A DNA stretch of 64,000 bases, taken from positions 1 to 64,000 of the forward strand of contig NZ_BCST01000010.1 of assembly GCF_001571005.1 (NCBI RefSeq), read 5' to 3'. The position numbers and the translations under genes are program-made. Under the pieces are notes generated by a model, which was given only the letters and a program-made list of their open reading frames with translations, did no database searches and was not told where the DNA came from. The DNA is from Herbiconiux solani NBRC 106740 (GTDB lineage: Bacteria; Actinomycetota; Actinomycetes; Actinomycetales; Microbacteriaceae). Positions 14,881-31,111 of this stretch are shown here, in pieces. Within the stretch, counting starts at the first letter, position 1. Every line of letters begins with the position of its first letter.

Positions 14881-16472
14881 CCGGCTATTCACACGACGAC
14901 GACGACGTCGCGGTCATCATCGGCTCGGGACCCGGTGGGGCGACGCTCGCCCTCGCCCTGGTGCGCGCCGGCCGTAAGGTCGTGCTGCTGGAGGCGGGAC
15001 CGTGGATCGACCCCGACGACTTCGTCAACGACGAGCGGATCGCCTACCAGCAGCTGACCTGGACCGACCCGCGGCTGGCCACCGGCGACTGGTCGCTGGC
15101 CCGGGACTTCCCGGCGAGCCCGGCCTGGATGGGCAAGGGCGTCGGCGGCACGTCGCTGTTCTGGACCGGGCTCACACCGCGGTTCAAGCGGCACGAGGTC
15201 CGCGCGGCGAGCACGTACGGCCGGGTGCCCGGCACGAGCCTCCGCGACTGGCCGGTCGACCTCGACGACCTCGACGAGCGATACGAAGAGGCCGAGCGGG
15301 CGATGGGCACCTCCCATCGCCAGGGCCGCCCGCCGATGCCCGCGAACAACAACTACAAGGTGCTGGCGAACGGGGCGAAGGCGATCGGCTACGAGCACTA
15401 CGCCACCGGCCCCTACGCCACGAACGTCGAGCCCTACGACGGCCGGCCCGGCACCCTTCAGGACGGCTTCTGCCAGCAGGGCGACAAGAGCAGGGCGAAG
15501 TGGAACCCGTCGGTCAGCGAGATCCCCAAGGCGCTCGCGACCGGCCTCCTCGACCTCCGCACCGAGGCGCGGGCCGTGCAGATCACGATCGGCCGCGACG
15601 GCCGGGCCGACGGGGTCGTCTACGCCGACCGCACCGGGCTGCACCGGCAGCGCGCCGCCCTGGTCTCGGTGGCCGGGAACGCGATCGAGACCCCGCGCCT
15701 GCTGCTGCTCTCGGCGACGACCGGGCATCCCGACGGCCTGGCGAACTCGTCGGGGCTGGTCGGCCGCAACTACATGCGGCACACCACGGGTGTGGTCTAC
15801 GCCGAGTTCCCGGACGAGGTGCACATGTACCGCGGCGAGCCCATGGCGGGCATCGTCAACGACGAGTCGCGCCACGACCCCTCGCGCGGCTTCGCGGGCG
15901 GGTACTACCTCGAGATGATCGCGCAGGGCCTGCCCTCGTTCAGCACCTTCATGGAGCCGGGCGGCTGGGGGCCGGAGTTCACCTCGAAGATCGAGGCCTA
16001 CACCCGCACCGCGGCCATCTGGATCTGCGGCGAGGACATGCCACAGGAGTCCAACCGGGTCACGCTGAGCGGCGCCGTGCTCGACGACCTCGGGCTGCCC
16101 GTCCCCGAGGTGCACTACGACGACCATCCGAACGACCTGGCGATGCGGCGGCACGGCTACGAGCAGGCCGAGAAGCTCTTCCGGGCCGTGGGCGCCGTGC
16201 GCACCACGCGCGCCCCGGCGATGCCCTCGGGGCACAACATGGGCACGGCACGGATGAGCGACGACCCCGCCGCGGGCGTCGTCGACGGCTACGGCCGCAG
16301 CCACGACATCCCGAACCTGTTCGTCTCCGACGGCTCGCTGTTCACCACGAGTGCGGCGGCGAACCCGACCCTCACGATCATGGCCCTGGTGCTTCGCCAG
16401 GCCGACCACATCCTCACCACCGGGGTCGCCGACCGCGTTCCGGCGGCGACCCGAGAAGGAGCACACCGATGA
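14877..16472 (+). CDS. GMC-family FAD-dependent dehydrogenase
   Basis: A 531-residue flavoprotein that should oxidise an alcohol group of a sugar or cyclitol to a ketone or lactone. The dinucleotide motif is VAVIIGSGPGGATLAL (glycines near 16-21) with the acidic end LLEAGPW. WMGKGVGGTSLFWTG is the substrate/flavin region. The active-site pair is probably His453 (SGHNMGTARM) and Asn496 (AANPTLTIMA). No signal peptide or heme motif is present, so the electron acceptor is unknown. It is coupled to the small subunit by ATGA. Relatives include gluconate, sorbose and glucoside 3-dehydrogenases; the length is normal for the bacterial branch. Confidence 0.9.
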   Translation: MTGYSHDDDDVAVIIGSGPGGATLALALVRAGRKVVLLEAGPWIDPDDFVNDERIAYQQLTWTDPRLATGDWSLARDFPASPAWMGKGVGGTSLFWTGLTPRFKRHEVRAASTYGRVPGTSLRDWPVDLDDLDERYEEAERAMGTSHRQGRPPMPANNNYKVLANGAKAIGYEHYATGPYATNVEPYDGRPGTLQDGFCQQGDKSRAKWNPSVSEIPKALATGLLDLRTEARAVQITIGRDGRADGVVYADRTGLHRQRAALVSVAGNAIETPRLLLLSATTGHPDGLANSSGLVGRNYMRHTTGVVYAEFPDEVHMYRGEPMAGIVNDESRHDPSRGFAGGYYLEMIAQGLPSFSTFMEPGGWGPEFTSKIEAYTRTAAIWICGEDMPQESNRVTLSGAVLDDLGLPVPEVHYDDHPNDLAMRRHGYEQAEKLFRAVGAVRTTRAPAMPSGHNMGTARMSDDPAAGVVDGYGRSHDIPNLFVSDGSLFTTSAAANPTLTIMALVLRQADHILTTGVADRVPAATREGAHR

Positions 16473-17845
16473 CCATCGCGACGATCGACCCCACGACCGG
16501 GGAGACCCTGAAGGAGTTCACCCCGCACACGCCGGCCGAGATCGAGGAGAGGATCGCGGCGGCGCACGCGGCCTACCTCGAGCTCGCCGGCACGACCTTC
16601 GAGCAGCGGGCCGGGTGGATGCGCGCCGCCGCCGACATCCTCGAGTCCGAGGTCGACACGGTCGCCTCGCTGATCACCACCGAGATGGGCAAGACGCTGG
16701 CGACGGCCCGCTACGAGGCGCTCAAGTCGGCCACCGGCATGCGGCACTACGCCGACAACGCCGAGCGCTACCTCGCGCCGGAGCAGCCCGTCGACCCGGC
16801 GAAGGCCGGGGCCTCCGGGCTCAGCGTGCGCTTCGATCCGATCGGCGTGGTGCTCGCGGTGATGCCGTGGAACTATCCGCTCTGGCAGGCCATGCGGTTC
16901 GCCGCCCCCGCGCTGATGGCGGGCAACACGGGGTTGCTCAAGCACGCCTCGAACGTGCCGCAGAGCGCGCTCTACCTGGGCGAGCTGTTCGAGCGCGGCG
17001 GGTTCCCGCACGGGGCATTCCAGACGCTGCTGATCGAGGGCGCGCAGGTGGCGCCGCTGCTGGACGACCGGCGCATCCGTGCGGCCACGCTCACCGGATC
17101 GGTCGCGGCCGGCGCCTCGGTGGCTGCGGCGGCGGGCCGCAACGTCAAGAAGACGGTGCTCGAGCTCGGGGGCACGGACGTGTTCATCGTGCTGCCCTCG
17201 GCCGACGTGCAGCGCGCCGCGGAGCTCGGCGTGACCGCGCGGGTGCAGAACTCGGGCCAGTCGTGCATCGCCTCGAAGCGCTACTACGTGCACTCCGACG
17301 TCTACGACGACTTCGCCGGCCGCTTCGTCGAGGGCATGGCCGCGACGACGACCGGAGACCCGCGCGCGGAGTCGACGACCTTCGGGCCGCTCGCCACCGA
17401 GCGCGGGCGGAGCGACGTGCACGAGCTGGTCGAGGACGCGGTGGCCAAGGGAGCGACCGTGCTCACCGGCGGCACGCTGCCCGAGGGGCCGGGCTGGTAC
17501 TACCCGGCGACGGTGCTGACGGATGTCACCCCCGAGATGCGGATCTTCCGTGAGGAGTGCTTCGGACCGGTGGCCTGCCTCTACCGGGTCGACGGCATCG
17601 ACGAGGCCATCGAGCGGGCGAACGACTCGGACTTCGGGCTCAGCTCGAGCGTGTGGACGAACGACGCCGCCGAGATCGAGCGGTTGGGTCGCGAGATCGA
17701 CGCCGGCGGTGTGTTCGTCAACGGGCTCACGGCCTCGTTCCCGGCCGTGCCCTTCGGCGGGGTGAAGGACTCGGGCTACGGCCGCGAGCTCTCGGATCTC
17801 GGCATCAAGGAGTTCGTCAACGCGAAGACGGTCTGGCAGGCCTGA
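16469..17845 (+). CDS. NAD(P)-dependent aldehyde dehydrogenase (succinate-semialdehyde dehydrogenase-like)
   Basis: A 458-residue enzyme oxidising an aldehyde to an acid. The cofactor segment PIGVVLAVMPWNYPLWQ, LTGSVAAGASV, the general base Glu232 (VLELGGTD) and nucleophile Cys266 (NSGQSCIASKR) are all present, as is the C-terminal PFGGVKDSGYGREL. The sequence style is that of the short SSADH/GabD branch, but substrates in this branch vary. As last gene of the transporter-GMC operon (ATGA overlap) it probably handles an aldehyde formed later in the same pathway, possibly glyceraldehyde or a sugar aldehyde; that is inference. Confidence 0.92.
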   Translation: MTIATIDPTTGETLKEFTPHTPAEIEERIAAAHAAYLELAGTTFEQRAGWMRAAADILESEVDTVASLITTEMGKTLATARYEALKSATGMRHYADNAERYLAPEQPVDPAKAGASGLSVRFDPIGVVLAVMPWNYPLWQAMRFAAPALMAGNTGLLKHASNVPQSALYLGELFERGGFPHGAFQTLLIEGAQVAPLLDDRRIRAATLTGSVAAGASVAAAAGRNVKKTVLELGGTDVFIVLPSADVQRAAELGVTARVQNSGQSCIASKRYYVHSDVYDDFAGRFVEGMAATTTGDPRAESTTFGPLATERGRSDVHELVEDAVAKGATVLTGGTLPEGPGWYYPATVLTDVTPEMRIFREECFGPVACLYRVDGIDEAIERANDSDFGLSSSVWTNDAAEIERLGREIDAGGVFVNGLTASFPAVPFGGVKDSGYGRELSDLGIKEFVNAKTVWQA

Positions 17846-17913: not shown

Positions 17914-18429
17914 TCAGTGCAGCAGGAGCATGAGCCCCAGCTGCACGGCGGTCAGCCCGAACACCAGGGTCCCCGGCACCAGCGATCCGCCGCGGGCTCG
18001 GCGGAGGGCGATCACCGCGGCGCGCACCACGAACCAGACCACGAGCACCACCGCGGGGTCGGTCGCGAGCCCCCACGGGGTCAGGGCGGAGCCGGTGGCA
18101 TGATGCCCCCACATCGCACCCGCCCCGCCGGCGGCCGGCTCGGCGGCGGCTGTCGCCCCGGCCATCGGCAGCGTCAGCAGCGCCATGGCCCACAGGTCGA
18201 GGATCGCCTCCCGGGCCCAAGCGGCGGTGCGCGCCCTCGGGGCGATCAGCAGCGAGGTCAGGATGCACGCGGCCGCGACCGCGAGCGACACACCGGAGCG
18301 CGACCCGGCGGCCGCGAGCAGGAGCACGAGCATCCCGCCCGCCATCACGGCGTGCGGCCACACCATCAGATGCGGCGCCCGCCCCACAGGGCGCGCGCGG
18401 ACGCCGCCGGAGGCGACGAACCCGGTCAT
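17914..18429 (-). CDS. Small integral membrane protein of the amine oxidase operon
   Basis: A 171-residue protein, last in the minus-strand operon and coupled to the kinase gene by ATGA at 18426-18429. Four hydrophobic segments are visible: MAGGMLVLLLAAAG, VSLAVAAACILTSLLIA, LWAMALLTLPMAGATAAA and VLVVWFVVRAAVIAL, with a final LVFGLTAVQLGLMLLLH. Several His and Met residues lie near the membrane (HLMVWPHAVM, MWGHHATG), a feature sometimes linked to copper handling, which would suit the copper amine oxidase two genes upstream. I know no family for it and this role is only a suggestion. Confidence 0.65.
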   Translation of the reverse strand: MTGFVASGGVRARPVGRAPHLMVWPHAVMAGGMLVLLLAAAGSRSGVSLAVAAACILTSLLIAPRARTAAWAREAILDLWAMALLTLPMAGATAAAEPAAGGAGAMWGHHATGSALTPWGLATDPAVVLVVWFVVRAAVIALRRARGGSLVPGTLVFGLTAVQLGLMLLLH

Positions 18430-19427
18430 CGAGCCGGGAGGGCTCCGGCGCCGACCAGGCGCGCCGCGAGCTCGACGGCACCCGTGACGGGTGCGCGGTC
18501 GAGCAGGGCGACAGCGAGGCCGGGGTGGCGCGCGGTGACGAGCGCCGACATCCGGTCGAAGAGCACGGGCTGCGCCGTCACGACCGAGCCGGCCGCGATC
18601 ACGTCCGAGCCGATCGCCCCGTGGGCGAGCAGCTGGTCGACGAGCCGGGCCAGGTGGCTGGCGGCGCCGTCGATGACCAGGGCGGCCTCGACCGAGCCGT
18701 TCTCGGCGGCCCGGAAGACCGCGGGCGCGTGCGGGCCCCAGTTCTCGGTCGTCGGGTCGTCGTTGACGGCGCGGGCGAGGCGTTCGGCGTCGGCCACCCC
18801 GAAGCTCTCGAGCAGGATGCTGAGGAGCGGGTCGGCGGTGCCGGTGCCGTCCGGGCGAGCGACCCCGCCCGAGTCCGCGGCCGCTGCCGCGGCCGCTGCC
18901 CCGATCCCGGCATCGATGCCCGCGTCGATCCCGTCGTCGTGTCGCGCGAGCGCGCGCTTCACGGCCTCGCGCACGATGCCGGCGGCCCCGGCGTCGTCGC
19001 CGATCACCGAGCCCCAGCCTCCGGCGGTGAGGAAGGAGCCGTCCTCGTCCCAGCCGACCCCGATGGCTCCGGTCCCGGCGATCAGGCCGATCACGTGCTC
19101 GAGCCCCGCGGCCGGCGCGATCAGCGCCGCGTCGTTGACGGCGACCGTGGGGACGCGCAACCGGTTCGTCAGCGCTGTGCCGAACTCGAGCATCAGTGCC
19201 GTGTTGTCCAGGCCCTGCGCGCCGATGCCGAGCGCCGAGACCGGGCCGGGCAGCGCGGGCGCGAGCGTCTCGAGCGCCGCCGCGATCCAGGCGACCCCGT
19301 GCTCGACCGGCTCGGCGTCCCAGTCGTGGGAGGGCAGCGTCGTCTCGGTCACGAGCCGGCGGGCGCCGTCCTCCGCCCGCACGGCGGCCTTGGTGCCGCC
19401 GATGTCGAGTCCGATGAACAACGTCAT
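18426..19427 (-). CDS. BadF/BadG-type ATPase, N-acetylglucosamine kinase-like sugar kinase
   Basis: A 333-residue ASKHA-fold kinase. The phosphate-1 motif LFIGLDIGGTKAAV, the segment VPTVAVNDAALIA, phosphate-2 VIGLIAGTGAIGVGW and LTAGGWGSVIGDDAGAAG follow the order in N-acetylglucosamine kinases of the BadF/BadG superfamily; AAGSVVTAQPVLFDRM is the adenosine site. It should phosphorylate a hexose or hexosamine imported by the neighbouring transporter. A low-complexity run (DDGIDAGIDAGIG then eight Ala) interrupts the second domain near residue 165 and looks like a recent repeat. ATG at 19427 overlaps the SIS gene stop; downstream the membrane protein overlaps in turn. Confidence 0.85.
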   Translation of the reverse strand: MTLFIGLDIGGTKAAVRAEDGARRLVTETTLPSHDWDAEPVEHGVAWIAAALETLAPALPGPVSALGIGAQGLDNTALMLEFGTALTNRLRVPTVAVNDAALIAPAAGLEHVIGLIAGTGAIGVGWDEDGSFLTAGGWGSVIGDDAGAAGIVREAVKRALARHDDGIDAGIDAGIGAAAAAAAADSGGVARPDGTGTADPLLSILLESFGVADAERLARAVNDDPTTENWGPHAPAVFRAAENGSVEAALVIDGAASHLARLVDQLLAHGAIGSDVIAAGSVVTAQPVLFDRMSALVTARHPGLAVALLDRAPVTGAVELAARLVGAGALPAR

Positions 19428-20449
19428 GCGACGGTGCCCGACGAGGAGGTCTCGACCTTGGTGTCGGCGTTGTGGAAGACGAATTCCTCCACGTCGATGC
19501 CGCGCACGAAGGCCATGTCGTTGGCGAAGGCCTGCATGACGAGCGCCTCGAGGATGGCCCGCTGGGCCGCGTGCCGCCGCGGCAGCGGGATGACGGTGAG
19601 CGACTCGGTCTCCGGCACGTCCTGCGAGGTGATCAGCACCACGCGGTGGCCGGCGGCGCTCAGTGTCTGGGCCAGGTCGATCTCCCGTTCGTCGCCGAGC
19701 ACGATGTGCATCCCGTCGCCGGCCGACTCCATCGATCCGTGCAGGTACTGGCGGGTGCTCATCGCTGTGGAGTGTACCCGCGCGACCTCGCGGAACAGCA
19801 GGGCCCCGGCCTCGGCCGAGCCCACGGCGGGACCGGCCCCGACGAAGTCGGCGGTGGGCGCGGCGGCGAAGCGCGAGGCGATCGAGATCGAGCGCTGGGC
19901 GAGCTGGGCCTCCACGGCCCGCACGTCACCGGGCAGCAGGGCCCACTGCGGGTCGAGCTCACCGCCGTCCCAGAGATCGGCGATCATGCCGAGGGCGACG
20001 ATGGTCGCCGTGTAGCCGATCGTCGAGGCGTAGCTGTCGGGGATGTTGCCGAGCACGAGCGCCCGGTCGACGACCGACGAGATGGGGGAGGGGTCGTTGT
20101 TGACGACCGCGAAGCGCAGCGCCGGCTCGACGGATTTGAGCACCGCGAGGGTCTCCGAGCTCTTCCCGCTCTGCGAGATCCCGATGATGGGATGCACGCT
20201 CTCCGGGAACGGCAGCGGGTGGTCGCCCGCGCCGAGCCGCCACGAGTGGATGCCGCGCTTCCGCAGCGCCCAGACCGGGGCGGCGGCCGCGGCGAGACTC
20301 GCGCCGATGCCCACGAAGATCGGCCCGGGGCCGCTCAGCGCTCCGGCGGCCTGGAGGGCGAGTGCGTTCTCGGCGATCCGTGCGATCGCGTCGTCGAGCT
20401 GTTCGGCTTGCTTCCGACGCGCCTCGACGAGGGGGATGTAGCCCTTCAC
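19424..20449 (-). CDS. SIS-domain sugar isomerase/deaminase/deglycase
   Basis: A 341-residue protein with two SIS folds, as in GlmS isomerase domains, AgaS and the fructoselysine-6-phosphate deglycase FrlB. SIS-1: PIFVGIGASLAAAAAP and the phosphosugar loop ISQSGKSSET. SIS-2: DFVGAGPAVGSAEAGALLF then REVARVHSTAMSTRQYLHG, where related enzymes hold catalytic Glu and His, and HRVVLITSQDVPETES. The GTG at 20449 overlaps the amine oxidase stop (GTGA). The kinase follows directly, so a phosphorylated amino sugar or Amadori-type sugar-amine is a plausible substrate. The exact reaction cannot be read from the sequence. Confidence 0.85.
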   Translation of the reverse strand: MKGYIPLVEARRKQAEQLDDAIARIAENALALQAAGALSGPGPIFVGIGASLAAAAAPVWALRKRGIHSWRLGAGDHPLPFPESVHPIIGISQSGKSSETLAVLKSVEPALRFAVVNNDPSPISSVVDRALVLGNIPDSYASTIGYTATIVALGMIADLWDGGELDPQWALLPGDVRAVEAQLAQRSISIASRFAAAPTADFVGAGPAVGSAEAGALLFREVARVHSTAMSTRQYLHGSMESAGDGMHIVLGDEREIDLAQTLSAAGHRVVLITSQDVPETESLTVIPLPRRHAAQRAILEALVMQAFANDMAFVRGIDVEEFVFHNADTKVETSSSGTVA

Positions 20450-22437
20450 GCGTGGCCTCCGTTCTGGTGCGGGTGTTCCTGGTGGTGGTCGTGTCCCGGG
20501 GCGCAGTGGTCGCTGGTGGTCTCGGGGATGTCGAGGGTGGGGTTGCGCCCGAAGAAGTTGTGGGGCTTCAGGGTGAACCCGGCGGTGTCGACGGGCATGA
20601 TGGGCCAGTCCTCGAGGCGGGGGAAGTGGGTGAGGCCGAAGGTGTGCCAGAGCACGATGTCGGCGCCGTCGATGGGGCGGTCCTGCTCGACCCATTCGGG
20701 GAGGCCGGAGCCGCCGGGGTGCATGTTGACGAAGTCGCCGGCGGGATAGTTCTCGTCGGGGTCGTAGGCGGTGACCCAGAGGTGTTTCGTGGCGTAGGTG
20801 GCGCGCTTGTTGATGTCGGAGTCGGTGTCGGCGAGGAGCGCGGGTTGGCCTTCGGGGGCGAGCACCCAGCCCACGGGGTTCCCGAGCCGGTTGTCGACGG
20901 TGGGGTTGACGATGTGCCAGACGCGGCCGCGGGCGTTGTCGGCCATGCGTCGGGCGTCTTTCTCGGTGGCCAGGCGGGTGACGGTCTGGGTGAAGCCGGT
21001 GCCGGTGGGGTTGCCGGGGCCGCGGGGCACGAGGGCGGCTTCGAGTTCATCGACGGCGTTGTCCGGGCCGTCGATCATGGTGTCGAGGCGGGCGCTGAAC
21101 AGGTGCTGGTGGTACGGGGCACCGAGCCCGGGCGCGAGTTCGGAGGCGAACGGGTAGCCCGGTGCGGGGTAGGCGGAGGTGAAGACGACGCCGGTGGCCT
21201 TGACCTCGAGGCGGATGCTGCCGTCGAGGGAGAAGTACCAGTAGAACCCGTAGTCGTAGTTGCCGACGGTCACGAAGAACGAGATCACCAGGCGGCGGTT
21301 GCGGCGGGAATCGCTGGATCCGTTCCAGTTGTCCGAGTGCTTCCAGAGGATCCCGGCGTCCTCCTCGTGGATGCAGATCGCCTGCGGCACGATCCGGGCG
21401 TGGCCGTCGTTGCCGGCCATGACCGCGTCGAGGTAGGTGATGTCGCCGACGCAGTCGCAGCCGAGTTCGAGGGAGTTCGCGAACCCGCCGAGGAGGTACT
21501 CGCCGCAGTCGAAGAAGTTCTGGAACCAGCGCTGGGGTGCGGGGTCGCCGTAGGGGACCATCATCTCCGCGATCGACGCCCGGTAGAGCACGGGCCGCTG
21601 GGCGCCGGTGGCAGGGTCGCGGATGCCGATGTTGTGCAGCACGAGGCCCTCGCGCTGGTCGAACCCGACCTGCACCCGCCACCCCAACCAGTCCAGGACC
21701 CCGTCCTCGTCGATGGTGAAACTGGGTCCTTCGGGCTGGGTGATCTGGATCGGCTTCATCCCCGCCCGTGGGGTCTCGTTCACCCAGGAGGGAAGGTGGA
21801 AGTTCCCGTCCTCCTCCGGGACGGGGAACTCGACGTAGTCGTGGACTTCGAGCACTTCCCGGTTCGCGACGTCCACGATCACGGTGACCCCGTCCACGGG
21901 GTGGGCCCAGCCGAGGTCGTCGGGGGTCTTCTGCAGGAAGGTGAAGCAGCGCTGCAACCGGCGACCGGCTTCATCCGTGCTGAGCACGCCGGCCGAGAGG
22001 GGGTTCACCCGCAGCGTGCTGACATCGGTCAGGCCCCGCTTGGCCATCGCGGCCAGCCACCGCGCATCCTGATGGACGAGCTCTTCGACCAGCGAGAACT
22101 CCAGCAGCACCACCGGCGCCTGCCCGTCCGTGACGGGGTCGAGGTCATGCACCGAGACGACCGTGCCGGTGGCCGGGACCACGATCACGTCCTGCGAGAC
22201 CGCGGTGCCCATGTCGACCAGCATCACCCGGATGCGCCGGGTCGCCGCATCCACCGGCCCGCCCGCGATCAGCGGCCGCTTGTCCGGCTCGGCCAGGCCG
22301 AGGTAGGCCACGTGCGTGTCGGCGCCGAGCAGCCCCGCCTCGTCGAGGGCGGTGCGCACCCGCTCGATCTCGTCGGCGGTGATCGTGCGCAGGGCGGGGG
22401 CCAGACGCTCGGTCAGGTCGGGGACGGGTGTGCTCAC
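20446..22437 (-). CDS. Copper-containing primary amine oxidase (phenylethylamine oxidase-like)
   Basis: A 663-residue quinoprotein converting a primary amine, oxygen and water to aldehyde, ammonia and peroxide. All key parts are visible: topaquinone precursor Tyr394 in VGNYDYGFYW, catalytic base Asp310 in WFQNFFDCGEYL, copper ligands His443 and His445 in PYHQHLFSAR and a third His in VLWHTFGLTHFP. It closely resembles the Arthrobacter globiformis phenylethylamine enzyme in size and motifs; no signal peptide is seen. The GTG at 22437 follows GAGAGG. The last 20 residues are His-rich (HCAPGHDHHQEHPHQNGGHA), perhaps for copper loading. Unusually, it is coupled by GTGA to a SIS-domain sugar enzyme. 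Confidence 0.95.
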   Translation of the reverse strand: MSTPVPDLTERLAPALRTITADEIERVRTALDEAGLLGADTHVAYLGLAEPDKRPLIAGGPVDAATRRIRVMLVDMGTAVSQDVIVVPATGTVVSVHDLDPVTDGQAPVVLLEFSLVEELVHQDARWLAAMAKRGLTDVSTLRVNPLSAGVLSTDEAGRRLQRCFTFLQKTPDDLGWAHPVDGVTVIVDVANREVLEVHDYVEFPVPEEDGNFHLPSWVNETPRAGMKPIQITQPEGPSFTIDEDGVLDWLGWRVQVGFDQREGLVLHNIGIRDPATGAQRPVLYRASIAEMMVPYGDPAPQRWFQNFFDCGEYLLGGFANSLELGCDCVGDITYLDAVMAGNDGHARIVPQAICIHEEDAGILWKHSDNWNGSSDSRRNRRLVISFFVTVGNYDYGFYWYFSLDGSIRLEVKATGVVFTSAYPAPGYPFASELAPGLGAPYHQHLFSARLDTMIDGPDNAVDELEAALVPRGPGNPTGTGFTQTVTRLATEKDARRMADNARGRVWHIVNPTVDNRLGNPVGWVLAPEGQPALLADTDSDINKRATYATKHLWVTAYDPDENYPAGDFVNMHPGGSGLPEWVEQDRPIDGADIVLWHTFGLTHFPRLEDWPIMPVDTAGFTLKPHNFFGRNPTLDIPETTSDHCAPGHDHHQEHPHQNGGHA

Positions 22438-22493
22438 GGCGGAGTCCTCTCGGGGCAGGGGAAGGATGGGGGGACGAGCGGATGCGGGGGTCG

Positions 22494-23528
22494 TCACGGG
22501 TACACGACCGGCTCCCACTGCCCGGTGCGCATGGACCGGTAGCAGGCGTCGATGATCGTGTTGACGATCAATCCGTCGTAAAAGGTCTCGGAGGGGGCGG
22601 TGCCGGCCTCGAAGTGCGTGATGAAGTGCCGGAACTGCTGCGAGAAGCCGTAGGCCCGCGTCTCCTCCGGAACCGGGTAGACCCAGCCGGTGTCGGCATC
22701 CGCCTTCTCGACCAGGTAGCCGATCGGCTTCTCGATGAAGCCCCAGACGGGGGTCTGGGAGGTGTCGGTGATGATGCGGCCGCCGCTGCCGACGAACTCG
22801 TGGCGGAGCGCCATGCCGCCCTTCTCGATCCACGACGACTCGATCGTGGCCAGCTGGCCTCCCGCGAAGCGGAGCCAGGCGGTCGCCGTGTCCTCTCCGG
22901 TGGTCTTGTCGCCGTGGACGAGGGTGGCGCCCCAGGCCATGACGTCGACCACCCGGTTGTCCTTGCCGAAGAAGTGGCGGGCGGATTCCACGGTGTGGCA
23001 GCCCATGTCGAGCAGGGCGCCGCCGCCCGCGGTCTCCGCATCCCAGAAGTGCGCGGCATGCGGGCCGGAATGACCCTCGCGGGCGCGCATGGTCAGCACC
23101 TCGCCGATCCCACCGGCGGCCACCATCTCGTGGGCCTTCACGATGTTCGGCGAGAACACCGAGCTCTCGGCGTAGCCGTGCCAGATGCCGGACTCCTGGA
23201 CGACGGCGACGATCTCGGCCGCCTCCGCAGCGGTGCGGGCGAGGGGCTTGGTGCAGATGACGGCCTTGCCGAAGCGGGCGGCGGCGCGCACCGCCTCGAC
23301 GTGCACCTCGTTCGGCAGTGCGACGACCACCACGTCGACGGCCGGATCGGCGGCGAGCCCCTCCAGCGTCTCGTGGCTGTTCGGGATGCGCCACCGCTCG
23401 GCGAACCGTGCGGCGGATTCCGGGGTGCGCGAGTAGTTCGCCACCAGGTCGGCCGAGCGCACGTCCTGCAGCGCGTCGGCGTAGCACTCGGCGATGAAGC
23501 CCGAGCCGAGGATTCCGATTCCTGTCAT
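22494..23528 (-). CDS. Gfo/Idh/MocA-family oxidoreductase (operon lead gene)
   Basis: A 344-residue NAD(P)-dependent dehydrogenase. The Rossmann start is IGILGSGFIAECYADAL; the conserved lysine is in AVICTKPLAR (the common EKP is TKP here); the second domain shows GGGALLDMGCHTVESARHFFG, where the GxHxxD-type histidine sits. These enzymes oxidise or reduce sugars, inositols or their keto forms. ATG at 23528 faces the divergent binding-protein gene over a 146-base AT-rich control region. The amine oxidase start lies 56 bases downstream, so all five minus-strand genes probably form one transcript. Confidence 0.9.
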   Translation of the reverse strand: MTGIGILGSGFIAECYADALQDVRSADLVANYSRTPESAARFAERWRIPNSHETLEGLAADPAVDVVVVALPNEVHVEAVRAAARFGKAVICTKPLARTAAEAAEIVAVVQESGIWHGYAESSVFSPNIVKAHEMVAAGGIGEVLTMRAREGHSGPHAAHFWDAETAGGGALLDMGCHTVESARHFFGKDNRVVDVMAWGATLVHGDKTTGEDTATAWLRFAGGQLATIESSWIEKGGMALRHEFVGSGGRIITDTSQTPVWGFIEKPIGYLVEKADADTGWVYPVPEETRAYGFSQQFRHFITHFEAGTAPSETFYDGLIVNTIIDACYRSMRTGQWEPVVYP

Positions 23529-23674
23529 GAGCGAAACAATACCTCTAGAAACAAGAACGAGACAATCAGGCGAAACATGTTCGTTACATTAAGACCTCTT
23601 GTAACCTCATGTACTCGATGTATATGCTGTCGAAATCCCGCAATCACAAACCACTAGAAGAAGAAGGAGGCGCC
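23529..23674. promoter_or_regulatory. AT-rich divergent control region
   Basis: The 146-base gap between the divergent oxidoreductase and binding-protein genes is much more AT-rich than its surroundings. It holds three GAAACA repeats (near 23532, 23548 and 23571), the near-palindrome CGAAACATGTTCG, and a strong AAGGAGG at 23664-23670 for the GTG at 23675. It probably carries both promoters and operator sites; single boxes could not be fixed with confidence. Confidence 0.6.
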
Positions 23675-24964
23675 GTGCGATCCAAACTCGTGCCCATAGC
23701 GATCACCACAGCAAGCCTTGTCATGCTCGGTCTGGCCGGATGCTCCACGGGCGGATCCTCGTCGTCCACCGACGCCGCCGGCGGCGACGTGACCCTCACG
23801 CTCGCCACCTGGCGTACCGAGGACACGGCGATGTGGGAGGACGAGATCCTCCCCGCGTTCGAATCGTCCCACCCCGGGATCACCGTCGACTACGCCCCCG
23901 TCGGCACCGACGACTACAACGCGGCCATCCAGTCGCAGATCGAGGGTGGCACCGGCGCCGACCTGATCATGTGCCGCCCGTTCGACGTCAACCGCGCCTG
24001 GATCGATGACGGCTACTTCGCCCCGCTCAAGGGCACCGACGCCGTCTCGCACTTCGACGAGACCGCCCTCGCGGCCTGGACCGACACCGACGGCAACCCG
24101 TTCTGCGTGCCGACCGCATCCGTGCTCGCCGGCTTCTACTACAACACCGCGATCTTCGACGAGCTGGGCCTCAAGGTACCGACCACCCAGGCCGAGCTGC
24201 TCGACGTGCTCGACACGATCAAGCAGAGTGGCAAGTACGAGCCCCTCGCCCTCGGCTCGGCCGACGGTTGGCAGCTCGCCTACAACGTGCTCTACAGCAT
24301 GGGGCCGAACTACTGGAACGGCGAAGAGGGCCGGCTCGGGCTGATCGACGGCAGCCAGAAGCTCACCGATCCCGACTTCGTCGCCGCCTTCGACGCCTTC
24401 GACTCGCTGAAGCCGTACCTCCCGGCCGGCTACGAGTCCCTCACCTATGAGGACATGATGCAGCTGTTCACGCTGGGCAAGGCCGCGATCATCCCCGACG
24501 GCTCGTGGGACATCAGTGCCGCGACCGCCACGGGGCTGGATGTCGGCGTCTTCGGCGCTCCCGTCGCCAAGGCCGGCGACCAGCGGTACCAGCAGGAGAT
24601 GCCCGACCAGGGCATCGGCATGAACGCCAAGACGGAGCACCAGGAGGCGGCGCAGCAGTTCCTCGACTGGCTCGCGACGCCGGAGTTCCAGAGCCTGTAC
24701 GTCAACAAGCTGCCGGGATTCTTCGCCATGGGCGACGAGCCGGTAACCTACGACGACCCGCTGGCCCAGAAGTTCGCCGATCTGAAGACCGACGCGGAGC
24801 TCACGCCCCGCCTGGCCCTGGATCGCCTCAGTGCCGGGACGCCCCCGCTCGACGACGAGATCTGGGTCGCCCTGCAGAACATGTACAACTCCGACCTGAG
24901 CGCGAAGGATGCGACCGCCGAGCTCCAGGCGGGTCTGGACACCTGGTACAAGCCGGGTCAGTAG
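23675..24964 (+). CDS. Solute-binding lipoprotein of a CUT1 sugar transporter
   Basis: A 429-residue extracytoplasmic receptor of family 1. GTG at 23675 has a perfect AAGGAGG. The signal peptide ends in LGLAGC, then a Gly/Ser/Thr linker. The body shows VTLTLATWRTEDTAMWEDEI, AIQSQIEGGTGADLIM, AGFYYNTAIFDELGLKVP, FTLGKAAIIPDGSWDIS and EAAQQFLDWLATPEFQ, the standard order for oligosaccharide or glycoside receptors. Two permeases follow. The ligand is unknown; the divergent amine oxidase/SIS/kinase operon suggests a sugar-amine or amino sugar. Confidence 0.92.
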   Translation: MRSKLVPIAITTASLVMLGLAGCSTGGSSSSTDAAGGDVTLTLATWRTEDTAMWEDEILPAFESSHPGITVDYAPVGTDDYNAAIQSQIEGGTGADLIMCRPFDVNRAWIDDGYFAPLKGTDAVSHFDETALAAWTDTDGNPFCVPTASVLAGFYYNTAIFDELGLKVPTTQAELLDVLDTIKQSGKYEPLALGSADGWQLAYNVLYSMGPNYWNGEEGRLGLIDGSQKLTDPDFVAAFDAFDSLKPYLPAGYESLTYEDMMQLFTLGKAAIIPDGSWDISAATATGLDVGVFGAPVAKAGDQRYQQEMPDQGIGMNAKTEHQEAAQQFLDWLATPEFQSLYVNKLPGFFAMGDEPVTYDDPLAQKFADLKTDAELTPRLALDRLSAGTPPLDDEIWVALQNMYNSDLSAKDATAELQAGLDTWYKPGQ

Positions 24965-24973
24965 AACCCACCA

Positions 24974-25005
24974 CCGTGCCGGGCGGCCGAGGTCGCCCGG
25001 CACGG
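24974..25005 (+). terminator. Stem-loop between binding protein and permease
   Basis: CCGTGCCGGGCG (24974-24985) pairs with CGCCCGGCACGG (24994-25005), a perfect 12-bp stem with an 8-base loop. Placed inside an operon, it probably lowers permease expression relative to the receptor rather than ending transcription fully. Confidence 0.7.
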
Positions 25006-25058
25006 CCCCTCCCGCCCTCGGTGCGCTCACCCGCACCGGCCCGAACCAAGAGAGTCAG

Positions 25059-25943
25059 ATGAAGCGCACCGCCCGCTCCTACCGCAATCTGATCCTGTTC
25101 AGCGGCCCCGCCCTCGTGGTGTACGCCGGCTTCCTGGTCATCCCCCTGATCGCCTCGGTGGTCCTCAGCTTCTTCCAGTCCGGCAAGGGCACGTCGACCT
25201 TCGTCGGCTTCGGCAACTATGTCTACCTGTTCACGAATGGCTCGACCAGCGAGCGCTTCTGGAACGCGCTGGTCAACAACTTCGAGTTCTTCGGCGTGCA
25301 CCTCCTGGTCGAACTGCCGATCGGCCTCCTGATGGCGGCGCTCCTGACCTCCTCGACGCTCCGCCGGTCGCGCGGCGTCTACCGCACGCTGCTGTTCATC
25401 CCGGCGACGCTGTCGGTGGTGATCGTCGGCTTCGTCTGGCGGCTCATCATCAACCCGCTCTGGGGCATCGTCGACTTCCCGCTGCTCGGCGACGAGAACA
25501 CGGCTCTCCCGACGATCGCCCTGATGTCGGTCTGGGAGTACGTCGGCATCCCGATGATCTTCCTCTACACCGCCCTGATCGCCATCCCGGACGACATCCT
25601 CGAGGCGGCGAAGCTCGACGGCTCGAACGCCTGGTCGACCTTCTGGCGGGTGAAGTTCCCGCTGATCGCTCCGCAGTTCGGGCTGATCGCGATCCTCACC
25701 TACATCTGGACCTTCAACGGCTTCGACATCATCTACGCCCTGAACGGCTCGGCGCCCGGCCCGGACTACAGCACCGACATCCTCGGCACGCTGTTCTACC
25801 GCACCTTCTTCGGCTCCAGCGGCCAGGTGGCCGACCCCGACCTCGGCGCCACGGTGGCCTCGGTCGTGTTCTTCCTCATCCTGATCATCACGGCCCTCTA
25901 CTTCTTCGTCGTGCAGCGCCGGCTGAAGAACTACGAACTCTAG
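25059..25943 (+). CDS. Sugar ABC transporter permease (CUT1, MalF/UgpA type)
   Basis: A 294-residue permease with six hydrophobic helices starting at LILFSGPALVVYAGFLVIPL. The EAA loop that docks the ATPase is EAAKLDGSNAWSTFWRVKFP. ATG at 25059 follows AAGAGAG. It pairs with the next gene to form the membrane pore for the receptor encoded upstream. Confidence 0.93.
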   Translation: MKRTARSYRNLILFSGPALVVYAGFLVIPLIASVVLSFFQSGKGTSTFVGFGNYVYLFTNGSTSERFWNALVNNFEFFGVHLLVELPIGLLMAALLTSSTLRRSRGVYRTLLFIPATLSVVIVGFVWRLIINPLWGIVDFPLLGDENTALPTIALMSVWEYVGIPMIFLYTALIAIPDDILEAAKLDGSNAWSTFWRVKFPLIAPQFGLIAILTYIWTFNGFDIIYALNGSAPGPDYSTDILGTLFYRTFFGSSGQVADPDLGATVASVVFFLILIITALYFFVVQRRLKNYEL

Positions 25944-25952
25944 GACCCGCTC

Positions 25953-26837
25953 ATGACCTCTGCCACCACCGCCCGCAAGGCCAGGGCCGAAGGCCTCGGC
26001 CTCACCAAGCCCTCCCGGCGGGATCCCGGCGCCCTCGTGGTGCACGTGCTCCTGATCGTGTTCGTCGTGATCGCGATCGCCCCGATCCTCGTCGTGGTGA
26101 TGAACTCGTTCAAGACCACGCCCGGCATCTTCAACGGGCCGTTCGCGCTGCCGACGGCCGAGACCTTCAACCTCGACGGCTGGGCGAACGTGTTCAAGCG
26201 CGGCAACTTCGCGCTCAACTACGGCAACAGCATCGTCGTCACCGTCGTCTCCACCGGCCTCACGCTCGTGCTCAGCACCTTCGCGGCGTTCGCGATCACC
26301 GAGTACAAGGTGAAGCTCGCCCCGGTGCTGGCCGGCTTCTTCATCATCGGGATCATGCTGCCGATCCGGCTGGGCACCGTGCCGATCCTCCAGACCATGG
26401 TCGCCTGGCACCTCGTCGACACGCTGACCGCGCTGATCCTGGTCTACACGGCGATGAGCCTGCCGCTCGCGATCGCGCTGATGGCCACCTACTTCCGGCG
26501 CGTGCCGACCGAGCTGAAGGAGGCGGCGAAGATCGACGGCGCCGGCGAGCTCCGCACCCTCTCGATCGTGCTGCCGCTCGTGCGGCCGGGTCTCGCGGCC
26601 GTCGCCTCGGTGACGATGCTGCCGATCTGGAACGACCTCTGGTTCCCGCTGATCCTCGCGCCCAGCAAGGAGAACCAGACGGTGACGCTCGGGGTGCAGC
26701 AGTTCGTCGGGCAGTTCCAGAGCGACTACCCGGCGCTGCTGGCGGCCCTCACCCTCGGGGCGCTGCCGCTGATCATCCTGTTCACCGTGTTCTCGCGGAA
26801 CTTCATCCAGGGCCTCAGCCAGGGCTACGGCAAGTAG
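25953..26837 (+). CDS. Sugar ABC transporter permease (CUT1, MalG/UgpE type)
   Basis: A 294-residue partner permease, nine bases after the first. Helices include LLIVFVVIAIAPILVVVMNS and IIGIMLPIRLGTVPILQTM; the EAA loop is EAAKIDGAGELRTLSIVLP. The C-terminus FSRNFIQGLSQGYGK is typical of MalG-type subunits. No ATPase gene is present in this cluster, so a shared MsiK/UgpC-type ATPase elsewhere in the genome is expected. Its last 13 bases overlap the convergent GntR gene. Confidence 0.93.
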   Translation: MTSATTARKARAEGLGLTKPSRRDPGALVVHVLLIVFVVIAIAPILVVVMNSFKTTPGIFNGPFALPTAETFNLDGWANVFKRGNFALNYGNSIVVTVVSTGLTLVLSTFAAFAITEYKVKLAPVLAGFFIIGIMLPIRLGTVPILQTMVAWHLVDTLTALILVYTAMSLPLAIALMATYFRRVPTELKEAAKIDGAGELRTLSIVLPLVRPGLAAVASVTMLPIWNDLWFPLILAPSKENQTVTLGVQQFVGQFQSDYPALLAALTLGALPLIILFTVFSRNFIQGLSQGYGK

Positions 26838-27589
26838 CGCCGCGCCGGCTTCGAGCGGGTGAACACCGTGCGGAGCCGGTAGCGGTCGCCGCTGTACTCG
26901 ATCGTCGAGATGAGCACCGGCCGGTCGCGCGCGTCGACGGAGAGCTGCCTCATGACGAGGATCGGCCGGCCGGCGTCGATGCCGAGGTGGCCGGCGATCA
27001 CCTCGTCGGCATCCCGCGCCTCGATCGTCGCCTCGGAGCGGGTGATGTCGGTGCCGCACTCGTCGAGCACGGCGTAGAGCGAGGCGGTCGTGAAGTCGAT
27101 GTGATCGCCGCCCGGGATCAGGGCGGCGGGGAGCCGGGTGTGGTCGATCGCGATCGGCACGCCGTCGAGGCGGCGCACGCGGCCGAGGCGGAGGAGCGGG
27201 GTGCCCGGTGCGACGGCGAGCTCCTCGGCCTCGTCGAGGCTTGCGGGCGAGATCCGCTGATCGATCACGATGGAGTCCGAGACCAGCCCCATCCGGGCCG
27301 CCGTCTCGGTGAAGGACTCGAGGGAGTTCGGCCAGTCGCCGGCGGCCGGCTCGGCCTGGGCACCGGTCGCGACGTACCAGCCGCGGCCGTGCGAGGCGCT
27401 GAGCACGCCCTCCTCGACCAGCGACATCAGGGCCTTCCGCAGCGTGACGCGGCTGACGTTGAGGGTGAGGCAGAGCTCGCGCTCCGGGGGCAGGCGCATT
27501 CCTTCGAGGTAGTCGCCGGTCGCGATGTGCTCGCGCACATAATCGGCGGTCTGCGCCCAGAGCGGCTCGGCTTTGGAACTGTCGATCAT
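26825..27589 (-). CDS. GntR-family regulator, UTRA (HutC/FrlR) type
   Basis: A 254-residue repressor-type protein. The winged helix reads PLWAQTADYVREHIATGD, MRLPPERELCLTLNVSRVTLRKAL and GVLSASHGRGWYV. The UTRA ligand domain follows (APGTPLLRLGRVRRLDGVPI, then GRPILVMRQLSVDA). UTRA regulators commonly sense sugar phosphates or amino-sugar phosphates; FrlR and NagR belong here. ATG at 27589 has GGGG eight bases upstream. It converges on and overlaps the CUT1 permease gene by 13 bases. Likely targets are its own promoter (direct repeat at 27613-27635) and the divergent operons at 23.5 kb. Confidence 0.9.
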   Translation of the reverse strand: MIDSSKAEPLWAQTADYVREHIATGDYLEGMRLPPERELCLTLNVSRVTLRKALMSLVEEGVLSASHGRGWYVATGAQAEPAAGDWPNSLESFTETAARMGLVSDSIVIDQRISPASLDEAEELAVAPGTPLLRLGRVRRLDGVPIAIDHTRLPAALIPGGDHIDFTTASLYAVLDECGTDITRSEATIEARDADEVIAGHLGIDAGRPILVMRQLSVDARDRPVLISTIEYSGDRYRLRTVFTRSKPARRYLP

Positions 27590-27782: not shown

Positions 27783-28934
27783 ATGTCGACGCAGACGCTC
27801 CGCATCATCATGAACGGCGTCACCGGGCGCATGGGCTACCGGCAGCACCTCGTGAGGTCGATCCTCGCGATCCGCGACGACGGGGGAGTGCTGCTCCCGA
27901 ACGGCGACCGAATCCAGGTCGAGCCCATCCTCGTGGGGCGGAACGCCGAGAAGCTCGCCGAGCTCGCTGCCTTGCACGGCGTCGCCGAGTACACGACCGA
28001 CCTCGCCGCCGCGCTCCGGGACGAGACGGCCACCATCTACTTCGACGCCCAGGTGACGAGCGCCCGCAAGGATGCGATCCTTCAGGCCATCGCCGCCGGC
28101 AAGCACATCTACACCGAGAAGCCGATCGCCAACACGGTCGCCGACGGTCTCGAGCTGGTGGCCGCCGCCGAAGAGGCCGGGATCATCAACGGGGTGGTGC
28201 ACGACAAGCTCTACCTGCCCGGCCTGCAGAAGCTCAAGCGCCTGATCGACTCCGGCTTCTTCGGCCGCATCCTGAGCGTGCGGGGCGAGTTCGGCTACTG
28301 GGTCTTCGAGGGCGACTACCTCCCGGCCCAGCGCCCCAGCTGGAACTACCGCGCCGAGGACGGCGGGGGCATGACCCTCGACATGTACTGCCACTGGAAC
28401 TACGTGCTCGAGAACCTGTTCGGCCGCGTCGAGGCCGTCAGCAGCAAGGCGGTCACCCACATCCACGAGCGCTGGGACGAGCAGGGCAACCGCTACGAGG
28501 CCACCGCCGACGACGCCGCCTACGGCACCTTCGAGCTCGCCGGCGACATCATCGCCCAGATCAACTCGAGCTGGGCGGTGCGGGTCGACCGCGGCGAGCT
28601 CGTCGAGTTCCAGGTCGACGGCACGCTCGGCTCGGCGGTCGCCGGCCTGTTCGGCTGCAAGGTGCAGCCGCGCGTCAACACCCCCAAGCCGGTCTGGAAC
28701 CCCGACCTGCCGACCGATCAGGACTTCGGGTCGCAGTGGACGCAGATCCCCGACAACCAGGAGTTCTCGAACGGGTTCCGCGCCCAGTGGGAGCAGTTCC
28801 TCGCCGACGTCGTGGCCGGTCGTCCGCACGCCTACGACCTCGCGGCCGGCGTGCGGGGCCTCCAGCTGGTGGATGCCGCCCTGCAGTCCTCGGCCGAGGG
28901 CCGGCGGATCGAGATCGAGCAGGTGCGGGCGTGA
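27783..28934 (+). CDS. Gfo/Idh/MocA-family oxidoreductase
   Basis: A 383-residue NAD(P)-dependent dehydrogenase, larger than the one at 22494. It starts RIIMNGVTGRMGYRQHL, has the EKPIANT motif for cofactor and catalysis (HIYTEKPIANTVADG), then WNYRAEDGGGMTLDMYCHWNY, where the conserved histidine lies. ATG at 27783 follows GGAGAG. With the DUF993 protein and the TIM-barrel isomerase it forms a coupled set seen together in actinobacterial sugar clusters. The substrate is probably a keto-sugar or cyclitol; the sequence does not settle it. Confidence 0.9.
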   Translation: MSTQTLRIIMNGVTGRMGYRQHLVRSILAIRDDGGVLLPNGDRIQVEPILVGRNAEKLAELAALHGVAEYTTDLAAALRDETATIYFDAQVTSARKDAILQAIAAGKHIYTEKPIANTVADGLELVAAAEEAGIINGVVHDKLYLPGLQKLKRLIDSGFFGRILSVRGEFGYWVFEGDYLPAQRPSWNYRAEDGGGMTLDMYCHWNYVLENLFGRVEAVSSKAVTHIHERWDEQGNRYEATADDAAYGTFELAGDIIAQINSSWAVRVDRGELVEFQVDGTLGSAVAGLFGCKVQPRVNTPKPVWNPDLPTDQDFGSQWTQIPDNQEFSNGFRAQWEQFLADVVAGRPHAYDLAAGVRGLQLVDAALQSSAEGRRIEIEQVRA

Positions 28935-30181
28935 CGGGCGGAGCGGTGACGGCCGGTGCAGTGGCGACGGGTGCGGTGACGGCCGGAGCGGTGACGACCG
29001 GGGGCCGGGTGGTGATCCCGACCCGCGACGGACGGCGCGAGATCGAGCTGAACGAGCCCCGGGAGTGGGCGGAGCATCCCGAGCCCTACCGCTCGCGCGT
29101 GGCGTTCGCCGCGGCGCACGTGGTCGCCGACCCGCGCGGCGAGAACGTGCCTGGCGCCCCCGCGGTGATCGACTGGGATGCGACGCTGGGGTTCCGCGAG
29201 CACCTCTTCCGCTACGGCTTCGGGGTCGCCGAGGCGATGGACACGGCCCAGCGCAACATGGGGCTGGACTGGCCGGCCATCCAGGAGCTCGTCGCACGGA
29301 GTGCCGCACAGGCGGCCGCCGCCGGGGCGCGCATCGCCTCGGGCGCCGGCACCGACCAGCTGGCCGACGTGGCGCAGGCCGCCGCCGCGGGCACCACGGC
29401 CTCGCTCGACGCGGTGCTCGAGGCCTACCTCGAGCAGGTCGCGTTCGTCGAGGGCACCGGTTCGCAGGTCATCGTGATGGCCAGTCGCCACCTCGCCCGC
29501 GCCGCGGCCGGGCCCGACGACTACCTCGCCGTCTACGACCGCATCCTCGGCCAGGTCTCCGAGCCGGTGGTGCTGCACTGGCTCGGCGAGGCCTTCGACC
29601 CGAACCTCGCGGGGTACTGGGGCTCGTCCGACATCGGGGCCGCGACCGAGACGTTCCTCCAGCTCGTGCGGAGCCACGCGGCCAAGGTCGACGGGGTCAA
29701 GGTCTCGCTGCTCTCGGCCGACCACGAGATCGGCCTCCGGCGCCTGCTGCCCGAGGGCGTGCGGCTCTACACCGGGGACGACTTCAACTACCCCGAGCTC
29801 ATCCGCGGCGACGACCAGGGCCACTCGGACGCCCTGCTCGGCGCCTTCGCGGCCATCGCGCCCGCGGCCTCGGCGGCCCTGTCGGCCCTGGACGACGGGG
29901 ATCTCGCCCGGTACGACGCCGAGATGGCGCCGACGCTGGCGCTCTCGCGGCACATCTTCGAGGCGCCGACGTTCCACTACAAGGTCGGCGTCGCCTTCAC
30001 GGCCTGGCTCACGGGCCGGCAGGAGGGCTTCCAGATGGTCGGCGGCCTGCAGTCGGCGCGCAGCCTGCCGCACCTGGCGCGCGTGTTCGAGCTGCTGAAC
30101 GAGGCCCGGCTGCTGCCGGATCCCGAGCTCGCCGCCGACCGGCTCGACCTCCTCGCCCGCACGCTGGGAGCCGGGCGATGA
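28931..30181 (+). CDS. DUF993-family protein (dihydrodipicolinate synthase-like barrel)
   Basis: A 416-residue protein of the DUF993 family, thought to adopt an aldolase-type TIM barrel. Recognisable segments are VIDWDATLGFREHLFRYGFG, AMDTAQRNMGLDW, VVLHWLGEAFDPNLAGYWG, KVDGVKVSLLSADHEIGLR, with a candidate barrel lysine in VDGVKVS, and ARLYTGDD-like GVRLYTGDDFNYPELI. The GTG at 28931 overlaps the previous stop, but the first 23 residues are a tandem repeat (GAVTA four times); GTG codons at 29009 and 29012 are later candidates nearer the conserved region. Function unknown; an aldol or retro-aldol step in sugar-acid breakdown is a fair guess from its neighbours. Confidence 0.85.
   Translation: MTGGAVTAGAVATGAVTAGAVTTGGRVVIPTRDGRREIELNEPREWAEHPEPYRSRVAFAAAHVVADPRGENVPGAPAVIDWDATLGFREHLFRYGFGVAEAMDTAQRNMGLDWPAIQELVARSAAQAAAAGARIASGAGTDQLADVAQAAAAGTTASLDAVLEAYLEQVAFVEGTGSQVIVMASRHLARAAAGPDDYLAVYDRILGQVSEPVVLHWLGEAFDPNLAGYWGSSDIGAATETFLQLVRSHAAKVDGVKVSLLSADHEIGLRRLLPEGVRLYTGDDFNYPELIRGDDQGHSDALLGAFAAIAPAASAALSALDDGDLARYDAEMAPTLALSRHIFEAPTFHYKVGVAFTAWLTGRQEGFQMVGGLQSARSLPHLARVFELLNEARLLPDPELAADRLDLLARTLGAGR
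28940..28999 (+). repeat. Four 15-bp tandem repeats at the DUF993 N-terminus
   Basis: Four near-identical units (GGAGCGGTGACGGCC and variants) encode GAVTA, GAVAT, GAVTA, GAVTT. They lie between the overlapping GTG start and the conserved part of the protein. Confidence 0.85.
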
Positions 30182-31077: not shown

Positions 31078-31111
31078 GCCGGCTCCCGGGCACGGCGCGG
31101 GGGCCGCAGGC

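Follow-up and report, generated by a model that had tools for sequence, protein, structure and literature searches.

A conserved gene cluster in Herbiconiux solani and other bacteria that appears to couple a sugar-phosphate branch to a copper amine oxidase

Bacterial copper amine oxidases (CAOs) are usually regarded as stand-alone amine scavengers. What could such an enzyme do when its gene is part of a sugar operon? This question is raised by contig NZ_BCST01000010.1 of Herbiconiux solani NBRC 106740, of which a stretch of 64,000 nt (the window) was analysed. An earlier note had described a cluster at positions 17914-27589 with a CAO gene among genes for a dehydrogenase, a double-SIS protein, a sugar kinase, a sugar importer and a regulator. 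Our analysis indicates that this grouping is a real, widely conserved catabolic unit, predicted from its genes to couple a sugar-phosphate branch to amine oxidation. The features of the locus are as follows.

22494-23528, minus strand: Gfo/Idh/MocA dehydrogenase, first gene of the minus-strand operon (Pfam PF01408/PF22725)
20446-22437, minus strand: CAO, similar to AGAO (PF01179, E 3.5e-147; start set by the gene caller)
19424-20449, minus strand: double-SIS protein, similar to GlmS and glucosamine-6-phosphate deaminases (Pfam, NCBIfam, PDB search, alignment)
18426-19427, minus strand: BadF/BcrAD-type sugar kinase (PF01869, E 1.2e-14)
23675-24964, plus strand: CUT1 sugar ABC substrate-binding lipoprotein (SBP; PF01547, E 2.7e-39; start and ribosome binding site read in the sequence)
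25059-25943, plus strand: CUT1 permease 1 (PF00528)
25953-26837, plus strand: CUT1 permease 2 (PF00528)
26825-27589, minus strand: GntR/UTRA regulator (PF00392, PF07702; start read in the sequence)
16469-17845, plus strand: aldehyde dehydrogenase (ALDH), similar to AldH and SSADH (PF00171; NF042989, 898 bits, cut-off 800)
23592-23606, minus strand: operator-like direct repeat GGTTACAAGAGGTCT in the divergent Gfo/SBP promoter region (pattern match)
17914-18429, minus strand: small membrane-type protein without Pfam or NCBIfam match

Gene content, order, conservation, catalytic residues and the regulatory site were read directly from the sequence. All genes and overlaps claimed by the earlier note for the dehydrogenase, CAO, SIS protein, BadF kinase, CUT1 importer and UTRA GntR regulator were confirmed by sequence, Pfam and NCBIfam. 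The Gfo/Idh, CAO, double-SIS and BadF genes are transcribed in one direction and the importer is divergent. The CAO and SIS genes overlap by GTGA, and ATGA joins SIS to BadF as well as BadF to the gene of the small protein. The ALDH gene falls outside the range of the earlier note and is convergent to the minus-strand operon. The assembly of H. solani (3.85 Mb, 18 contigs) contains one CAO.

The comparison comprised 81 loci, i.e. the window and the best 80 of 96 SIS relatives (named genomes, two peptide patterns), a set that favours close relatives; single loci are cited by L numbers. Gene presence was scored with identity thresholds (e.g. 38% for GntR and 35% for CAO), and the GntR count may include paralogues. 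A BadF gene was found in 78 loci, GntR in 77, Gfo in 63, CAO within 10 kb of the SIS gene in 56 and the CUT1 importer in 42. The CAO gene is located upstream of the SIS gene and in the same direction in 49 of 49 loci with a CAO of at least 50% identity. Up to 60 bp separate the two genes in 24 of these loci and 60-500 bp in 6 others; a further 18 have a gap of 1.5-2.6 kb, and a single locus has one of 4.4 kb. BadF directly follows SIS in 76 of 77 cases, and in 42 of 42 the Gfo and SBP genes lie next to each other in divergent orientation. The small protein has matches in just 2 of 81 loci, namely the window itself and L041 (38%); it was rejected as a component of the cluster, and its gene probably lies outside the core. 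The earlier note had made its proposal depend on an order shared beyond this strain, and across the 81 loci the order is conserved.

Hosts of the 80 relatives include Microbacteriaceae, Streptomyces, Actinacidiphila, Herbidospora, Asanoa, Rhizobium, Devosia and others, so that the grouping recurs in Actinomycetota and Alphaproteobacteria. The closest named relative among them is Herbiconiux daphne (SIS 87%, CAO 89%). Gfo proteins of the 62 other loci with this gene, Rhizobium included, are 70-87% identical to that of the window; the values of 72-75% for the Rhizobium loci suggest that the unit has spread by horizontal transfer. Within the family, the SIS protein found matches in 24 of 299 genomes searched, and nine of these (H. 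solani included) have a copy of at least about 50% identity. The CAO is adjacent in six of the eight other loci of this kind (L029-L033, L036) and absent from two (L034, L035). Four family loci with SIS identities of 29-36% (L037-L040) have no CAO alongside.

The CAO itself belongs to a well-defined subfamily. It scores 807 bits on the NCBIfam primary-amine oxidase model NF008559 (cut-off 651), and its top PDB matches are entries named phenylethylamine oxidase (E 1.8e-221), which we take to be AGAO of Arthrobacter globiformis. No signal peptide was seen by eye in the translation. In AGAO numbering, Tyr382 (TPQ), Asp298 and the copper ligands His431, His433 and His592 are present in 49 of 49 rows of the cluster clade. 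These 49 rows (48 distinct sequences) form a single clade (SH-aLRT 100), separate from AGAO and 29 other CAOs of the family; the latter are among the best-scoring of the family search and were labelled non-cluster because their genomes lack a SIS copy of at least 50% identity. The CAO of Microbispora (L111) groups in another lineage of the tree, and six CAOs of Rhizobium and Devosia, 38-43% identical to that of the window, make up a further one. The tree is quick and unrooted with long branches, so that exact placements are unsure; the match of L103, with 207 amino acids, was dropped from it.

Three CAO lineages beside the same SIS protein would correspond to three separate recruitments, as we infer from this tree. 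Different CAOs next to the same SIS, Gfo and importer genes are the strongest sign of a functional link. A neighbourhood formed by chance or hitch-hiking, with no such link, could draw on the frequency of CAOs in the family (91 of 299 genomes). This explanation is hardly credible given an order conserved in two phyla, three CAO lineages, a dedicated clade and a shared regulatory site; as far as sequence comparison can tell, chance is excluded by the recurrence across Actinomycetota and Alphaproteobacteria.

The SIS protein is more distant from characterised enzymes. Its residues E221, H237 and K331 are shared by 28 of 28 relatives in an alignment and correspond to a Glu, a His and the C-terminal Lys of E. 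coli GlmS, presumably E488, H504 and K603. BLASTP against three E. coli references yielded 24% identity for GlmS (E 2e-8), 21% for FrlB (E 0.004) and an E value of 1.1 for AgaS. The NCBIfam matches are GlmS and NagB-II models (53, 51 and 43 bits) and GlmD (21.5 bits), all far below the cut-offs; the GlmS model gives 53 bits against a cut-off of 381, and the NagB-II glucosamine-6-phosphate deaminase equivalog 43.2 bits against 430. The predicted structure (pLDDT 89.7) found GlmS isomerase domains first in Foldseek (E 2.3e-18), and the best 50 matches include Lmo0035 as well as archaeal and bacterial glucosamine-6-phosphate deaminases. The C-terminus has low pLDDT values, and the Lys is placed by sequence alignment alone. 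Compared to the GlmS isomerase domain and NagB-II deaminases, the protein thus has the same fold and the same catalytic Glu, His and C-terminal Lys, but differs by an identity of only about 20-24%, by scores far below the NCBIfam cut-offs and by its link to a CAO. If the kinship with GlmS holds, the amine would sit on C2 rather than C1 of the sugar phosphate. The NagS dehydratase of Streptomyces was considered as a counterpart and dismissed; it is a SIS-domain protein but, according to the part of the source available to us, related to MurQ (PMC12680351).

For the BadF kinase, PDB matches comprise N-acetylmuramic acid/N-acetylglucosamine kinase and hexokinase. Its score on the N-acetylglucosamine kinase (NagK) equivalog is 29.9 bits, below the cut-off of 370.

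On the amine side, an ALDH gene is located within 6.5 kb of the SIS gene in 37 of 56 CAO loci, compared to 2 of 17 CAO-less loci with a SIS of at least 50% identity (Fisher p 1.6e-4, relatedness ignored). This co-occurrence fits an aldehyde made by the CAO, and on its strength the ALDH is a conserved predicted partner of that enzyme. When joined at an identity of at least 50%, the nearest ALDHs from 42 loci form three groups (20, 14 and 8 loci); with a threshold of 45% identity an ALDH was found in only 20 of 81 loci, and a laxer search added two further groups. Two Rhizobium loci (L079, L096) lack a CAO within 10 kb; at the equivalent place both carry an aminotransferase gene of the same family, typed as class-III aminotransferase in L079 and as omega-aminotransferase AptA, above cut-off, in L096.

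The divergent Gfo/SBP region features a direct-repeat site with the consensus GGTNNCAAGAGGTAT. It is exact in 29 of 62 promoters and has at most one mismatch in 33, while 19 are three or more mismatches off; among 1240 shuffled promoters there was none with fewer than two mismatches. The pattern was derived from the same 62 promoters, which makes this count partly circular and the genome-wide count the more independent one. In ten of ten whole genomes, chosen among those having the exact site, GGTNNCAAGAGGTAT occurs exactly once, each time at the cluster's own site, and the reversed control gave none. With the looser pattern GGTNNCAAGAGGTNT, the genome of H. solani has one exact match (23592-23606) and seven with one mismatch, compared to two in the control; in the window alone, the number of matches with up to two mismatches (two) does not exceed the chance expectation. 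The GntR/UTRA regulator is the candidate protein to bind this direct repeat.

Taken together, these results are best explained by a self-contained unit that degrades a compound in which a sugar is joined to a primary amine, a reading to which we give close to an even chance; all reactions, their direction and the substrate are what we infer from the genes. The sugar part would most likely be an amino sugar or an N-substituted amino sugar. The compound would be taken up by the CUT1 importer and its sugar phosphorylated by the BadF kinase, probably at C6. The SIS protein, with its active site of the GlmS/glucosamine-6-phosphate deaminase type, would then isomerise the sugar phosphate and break the C-N bond, so that a primary amine is set free and the remaining sugar phosphate can enter glycolysis. 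A cytosolic CAO would turn the amine into an aldehyde, NH3 and H2O2, and the ALDH would convert the aldehyde to the acid. The Gfo dehydrogenase may oxidise the sugar prior to cleavage, and the GntR/UTRA regulator would control the divergent promoters via the GGTNNCAAGAGGTAT direct repeat. That the sugar-phosphate and amine-oxidising branches act as one unit, as the earlier note had proposed, is borne out by the conserved order, the three CAO lineages, the co-occurrence of the ALDH and a site found once per genome.

Several observations weigh against this reading. No CAO was found within 10 kb in 25 of 81 loci, in part due to contig ends, and the CAO of L103, one of the 56 counted, is a match of 207 amino acids only. 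In the 18 loci with a gap of 1.5-2.6 kb, a TIM-barrel gene, mostly together with a second Gfo gene, is located between CAO and SIS, which the simple model leaves unexplained. An ALDH is missing within 6.5 kb of SIS in 19 of the 56 CAO loci. In the window, the start of the ALDH gene (16469) overlaps the end of a GMC oxidoreductase gene (16472) of another, convergent operon, and the two may be transcribed together. The loci are related by ancestry and transfer and hence are not independent events. H. solani has a canonical NagB-family match elsewhere in its genome (PF01182, 240.8 bits), so that plain glucosamine-6-phosphate is not an obvious substrate of the SIS protein and its use would be redundant. 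Finally, E. coli FrlB, used as a control, scores 72.8 bits on the GlmS model and 52.4 bits on NagB-II. Since this deglycase matches the same models, family likeness cannot fix whether the amine is on C1 or C2, and the SIS protein may have deglycase chemistry.

The last point bears on the layout of fructosamine (frl) operons that the earlier note had recognised. Accordingly, one could assume catabolism of Amadori compounds linked at C1, in which a SIS deglycase releases glucose-6-phosphate and an amine that is consumed by the CAO. The likeness to frlBONMD-frlP/frlR of B. subtilis and frlABCDR of E. coli comprises the two-domain SIS enzyme, a sugar kinase and a dedicated regulator, and extends to the logic of phosphorylation followed by splitting of a C-N bond. 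We take FrlR to be a GntR-type regulator, as found here, and FrlD to be a PfkB-type fructosamine 6-kinase, in contrast to the BadF kinase (PF01869) of this cluster, which also differs by its CAO, ALDH and Gfo/Idh genes. The ABC importer, too, is shared with B. subtilis, whose frl layout of importer, SIS deglycase, kinase and regulator is given in the part of the source available to us (PMC12632257). Opp-type SBPs in place of CUT1 in some loci and amino acid permease-like genes next to the ALDH in L030 and L031 are further points in favour.

On the other side, the SIS protein gave no match at E<=0.001 to the FrlB model NF008481, on which E. coli FrlB scores 812 bits. The deglycase PDB entries found by E. 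coli FrlB (3eua, 3fkj, 2a3n and others) are absent from the best 20 PDB matches of the SIS protein, and in the best 50 Foldseek matches none of the deglycase entries that FrlB finds by sequence appeared. FrlB shares the Glu and His but lacks the C-terminal Lys in the alignment. This lack and the missing match to the FrlB model are the better signs for separating the SIS protein from deglycases. The claimed frl layout therefore stands for importer, two-domain SIS enzyme, kinase and GntR-type regulator, and falls for the FrlB identity, judged against E. coli FrlB and NF008481, and for the kinase family. On the latter two points plain frl membership was rejected, an argument weakened by the E. 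coli FrlB control. The resemblance would lie in the layout, the specific frl reading being weakly supported at best, and we consider it rather improbable.

A further candidate, though an unlikely one, is a widespread route that degrades N-substituted hexosamines, either Heyns-type or N-alkyl amino sugars. Here phosphorylation would be followed by a GlmS-like 'C2-amine deglycase', which would form a sugar phosphate of the fructose-6-phosphate type and release a primary amine for the dedicated CAO and ALDH. If true, this route would mirror the Amadori (frl/fra) pathway at C2 and would have recruited three CAO lineages.

Neighbouring glycosidase genes provide additional evidence on the sugar. A GH9 gene of the glucosidase/glucosaminidase subgroup was found in 11 of 81 loci and stands beside a second importer in Agromyces and Microbacterium. 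PDB relatives of these enzymes include 6gdt, presumably the structure of a V. cholerae glucosidase/glucosaminidase. A GH20 hexosaminidase was typed in L116. Both neighbours point weakly to an amino sugar. L116 belongs to a distant SIS group (L113-L120, 42-44%) without CAO; ThuA-like, SDR and zinc alcohol dehydrogenase genes (typed on representatives) are common to six of the eight loci in this group (L115-L120). An assignment of the second importer and GH9 in Agromyces to a csnREFGHK chitosan operon was dropped, the csn hydrolase being a GH4 enzyme in the part of the source available to us (PMC6097792).

The GH9 genes also favour separate uses of the two branches under one regulator, in which SIS and BadF would serve a plain hexosamine such as glucosamine and the CAO and ALDH would scavenge nitrogen from unrelated amines. 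In line with this, CAO-less loci of Mycetocola retain SIS, BadF and GH9, and in three loci (L080, L091, L097) CAO and ALDH adjoin PotABCD-like transporter genes (subunits typed on L080 and L091). Against it stand the CAO-SIS order kept in 49 of 49 loci and the other CAO lineages beside the same SIS. The NagB-family match in the genome of H. solani also speaks against it, as does the lack of a GH9 match there at E<=1e-10 in a search without positive control. We regard separate uses as doubtful.

Returning to the compound of sugar and amine, residues of the CAO give hints on the amine. Positions 135, 296 and 460 line the substrate channel, as we assume. The residue table compares the cluster clade with 23 AGAO-like other CAOs, six more distant ones being left out. 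Position 296 is F in 49 of 49 cluster rows and Y in 23 of 23 others; position 135 is N or Q in 49 of 49, instead of A, V or G (A135 in AGAO); position 460 is R in 49 of 49, instead of I, M, V or T (M460 in AGAO); and position 358 is N, H, S or T in 47 of 49, instead of mainly L or M (L358 in AGAO). The entrance of the AGAO channel is described as capped by Phe105 and Leu358' of the adjacent subunit in the part of the source available to us (PMC3004256). A polar substrate would be the natural reading of these exchanges, and phenylethylamine is disfavoured as substrate. The term 'phenylethylamine-type' used in the earlier note is thus appropriate for the family, based on NF008559, PDB matches and catalytic residues, and not for the hydrophobic channel and Tyr296 of AGAO. 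The cluster CAO is of the same subfamily as AGAO and keeps every catalytic residue, but it differs by its separate clade, by Y296F, A135N/Q, a mostly polar residue 358 and M460R, and by its place in a sugar operon. CAOs act on R-CH2-NH2, and amino-cyclitols, which had been offered as an alternative, were set aside as CAO substrates for this reason.

The polar channel and Y296F would also suit a CAO that acts on a CH2-NH2 group of the sugar itself, in an amino-deoxy or aminoglycoside-like sugar, with the aldehyde converted to a uronic-type acid by the ALDH. The best PDB matches of the Gfo protein (6jw6, 6nor), presumably dehydrogenases of aminoglycoside biosynthesis, point in the same direction. 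Such a route would leave kinase and SIS without an obvious role on the same ring, and the three loci with CAO and ALDH beside Pot-type importer genes argue against it as well; we consider it distinctly unlikely.

Several loci vary in their neighbouring genes. The Mycetocola loci (L034/L109, L035/L110), with SIS and BadF and without CAO, have a RidA-like gene upstream of SIS and D-serine-dehydratase-like, amidohydrolase and GH9 genes (families typed on L034). In L059, L061, L062, L063, L082, L105, L107 and others, an Opp-type importer, mostly replacing CUT1, is accompanied by ThuA-like, SDR and TIM-barrel genes; an OppA-like gene was found in 19 of 81 loci. The Opp-type SBPs score below cut-off on nickel, oligopeptide and opine models, and this version of the cluster is possibly a 3-keto-glycoside route. 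Five loci (L044, L047, L058, L059, L062) have an ethanolamine-permease-like gene nearby (typed in L044, below cut-off) and co-conserved unannotated neighbour genes.

In the window, the plus-strand genes at 9272-16472 encode a ribose-type ABC importer, a periplasmic binding protein and the GMC oxidoreductase that overlaps the ALDH start. Devosia (L084) and Rhizobium (L106) likewise have GMC-type genes close to the cluster; that of Devosia has no match in the window at 35% identity. Adjoining the other end, a plus-strand group at 27783-32230 features Gfo/Idh, DUF993, TIM-barrel and glycerate-kinase genes, with a palindrome GGGAAAGCGCTTTCC just upstream and a LacI-type gene at 32287-33333. Relatives of its Gfo (9 loci) and DUF993 (10 loci) genes recur beside the cluster among the 81 loci, the window and one Rhizobium locus included.

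In the open-licence literature, judged by title and start of the abstract, searches for this gene set and for neighbouring ideas yielded no paper describing it. Based on the comparisons above, one CAO clade appears to be dedicated to a sugar-phosphate operon, which in other bacteria contains CAOs of other lineages. With the CAO tied to the operon, its physiological substrate becomes testable, as the operon inducer or a derivative thereof. A substrate screen is practical, as the cluster is compact and its hosts include genera that are in culture (Leifsonia, Microbacterium, Streptomyces, Rhizobium). Solving the substrate would give an annotation to a two-domain SIS family and to a CAO clade at the same time.

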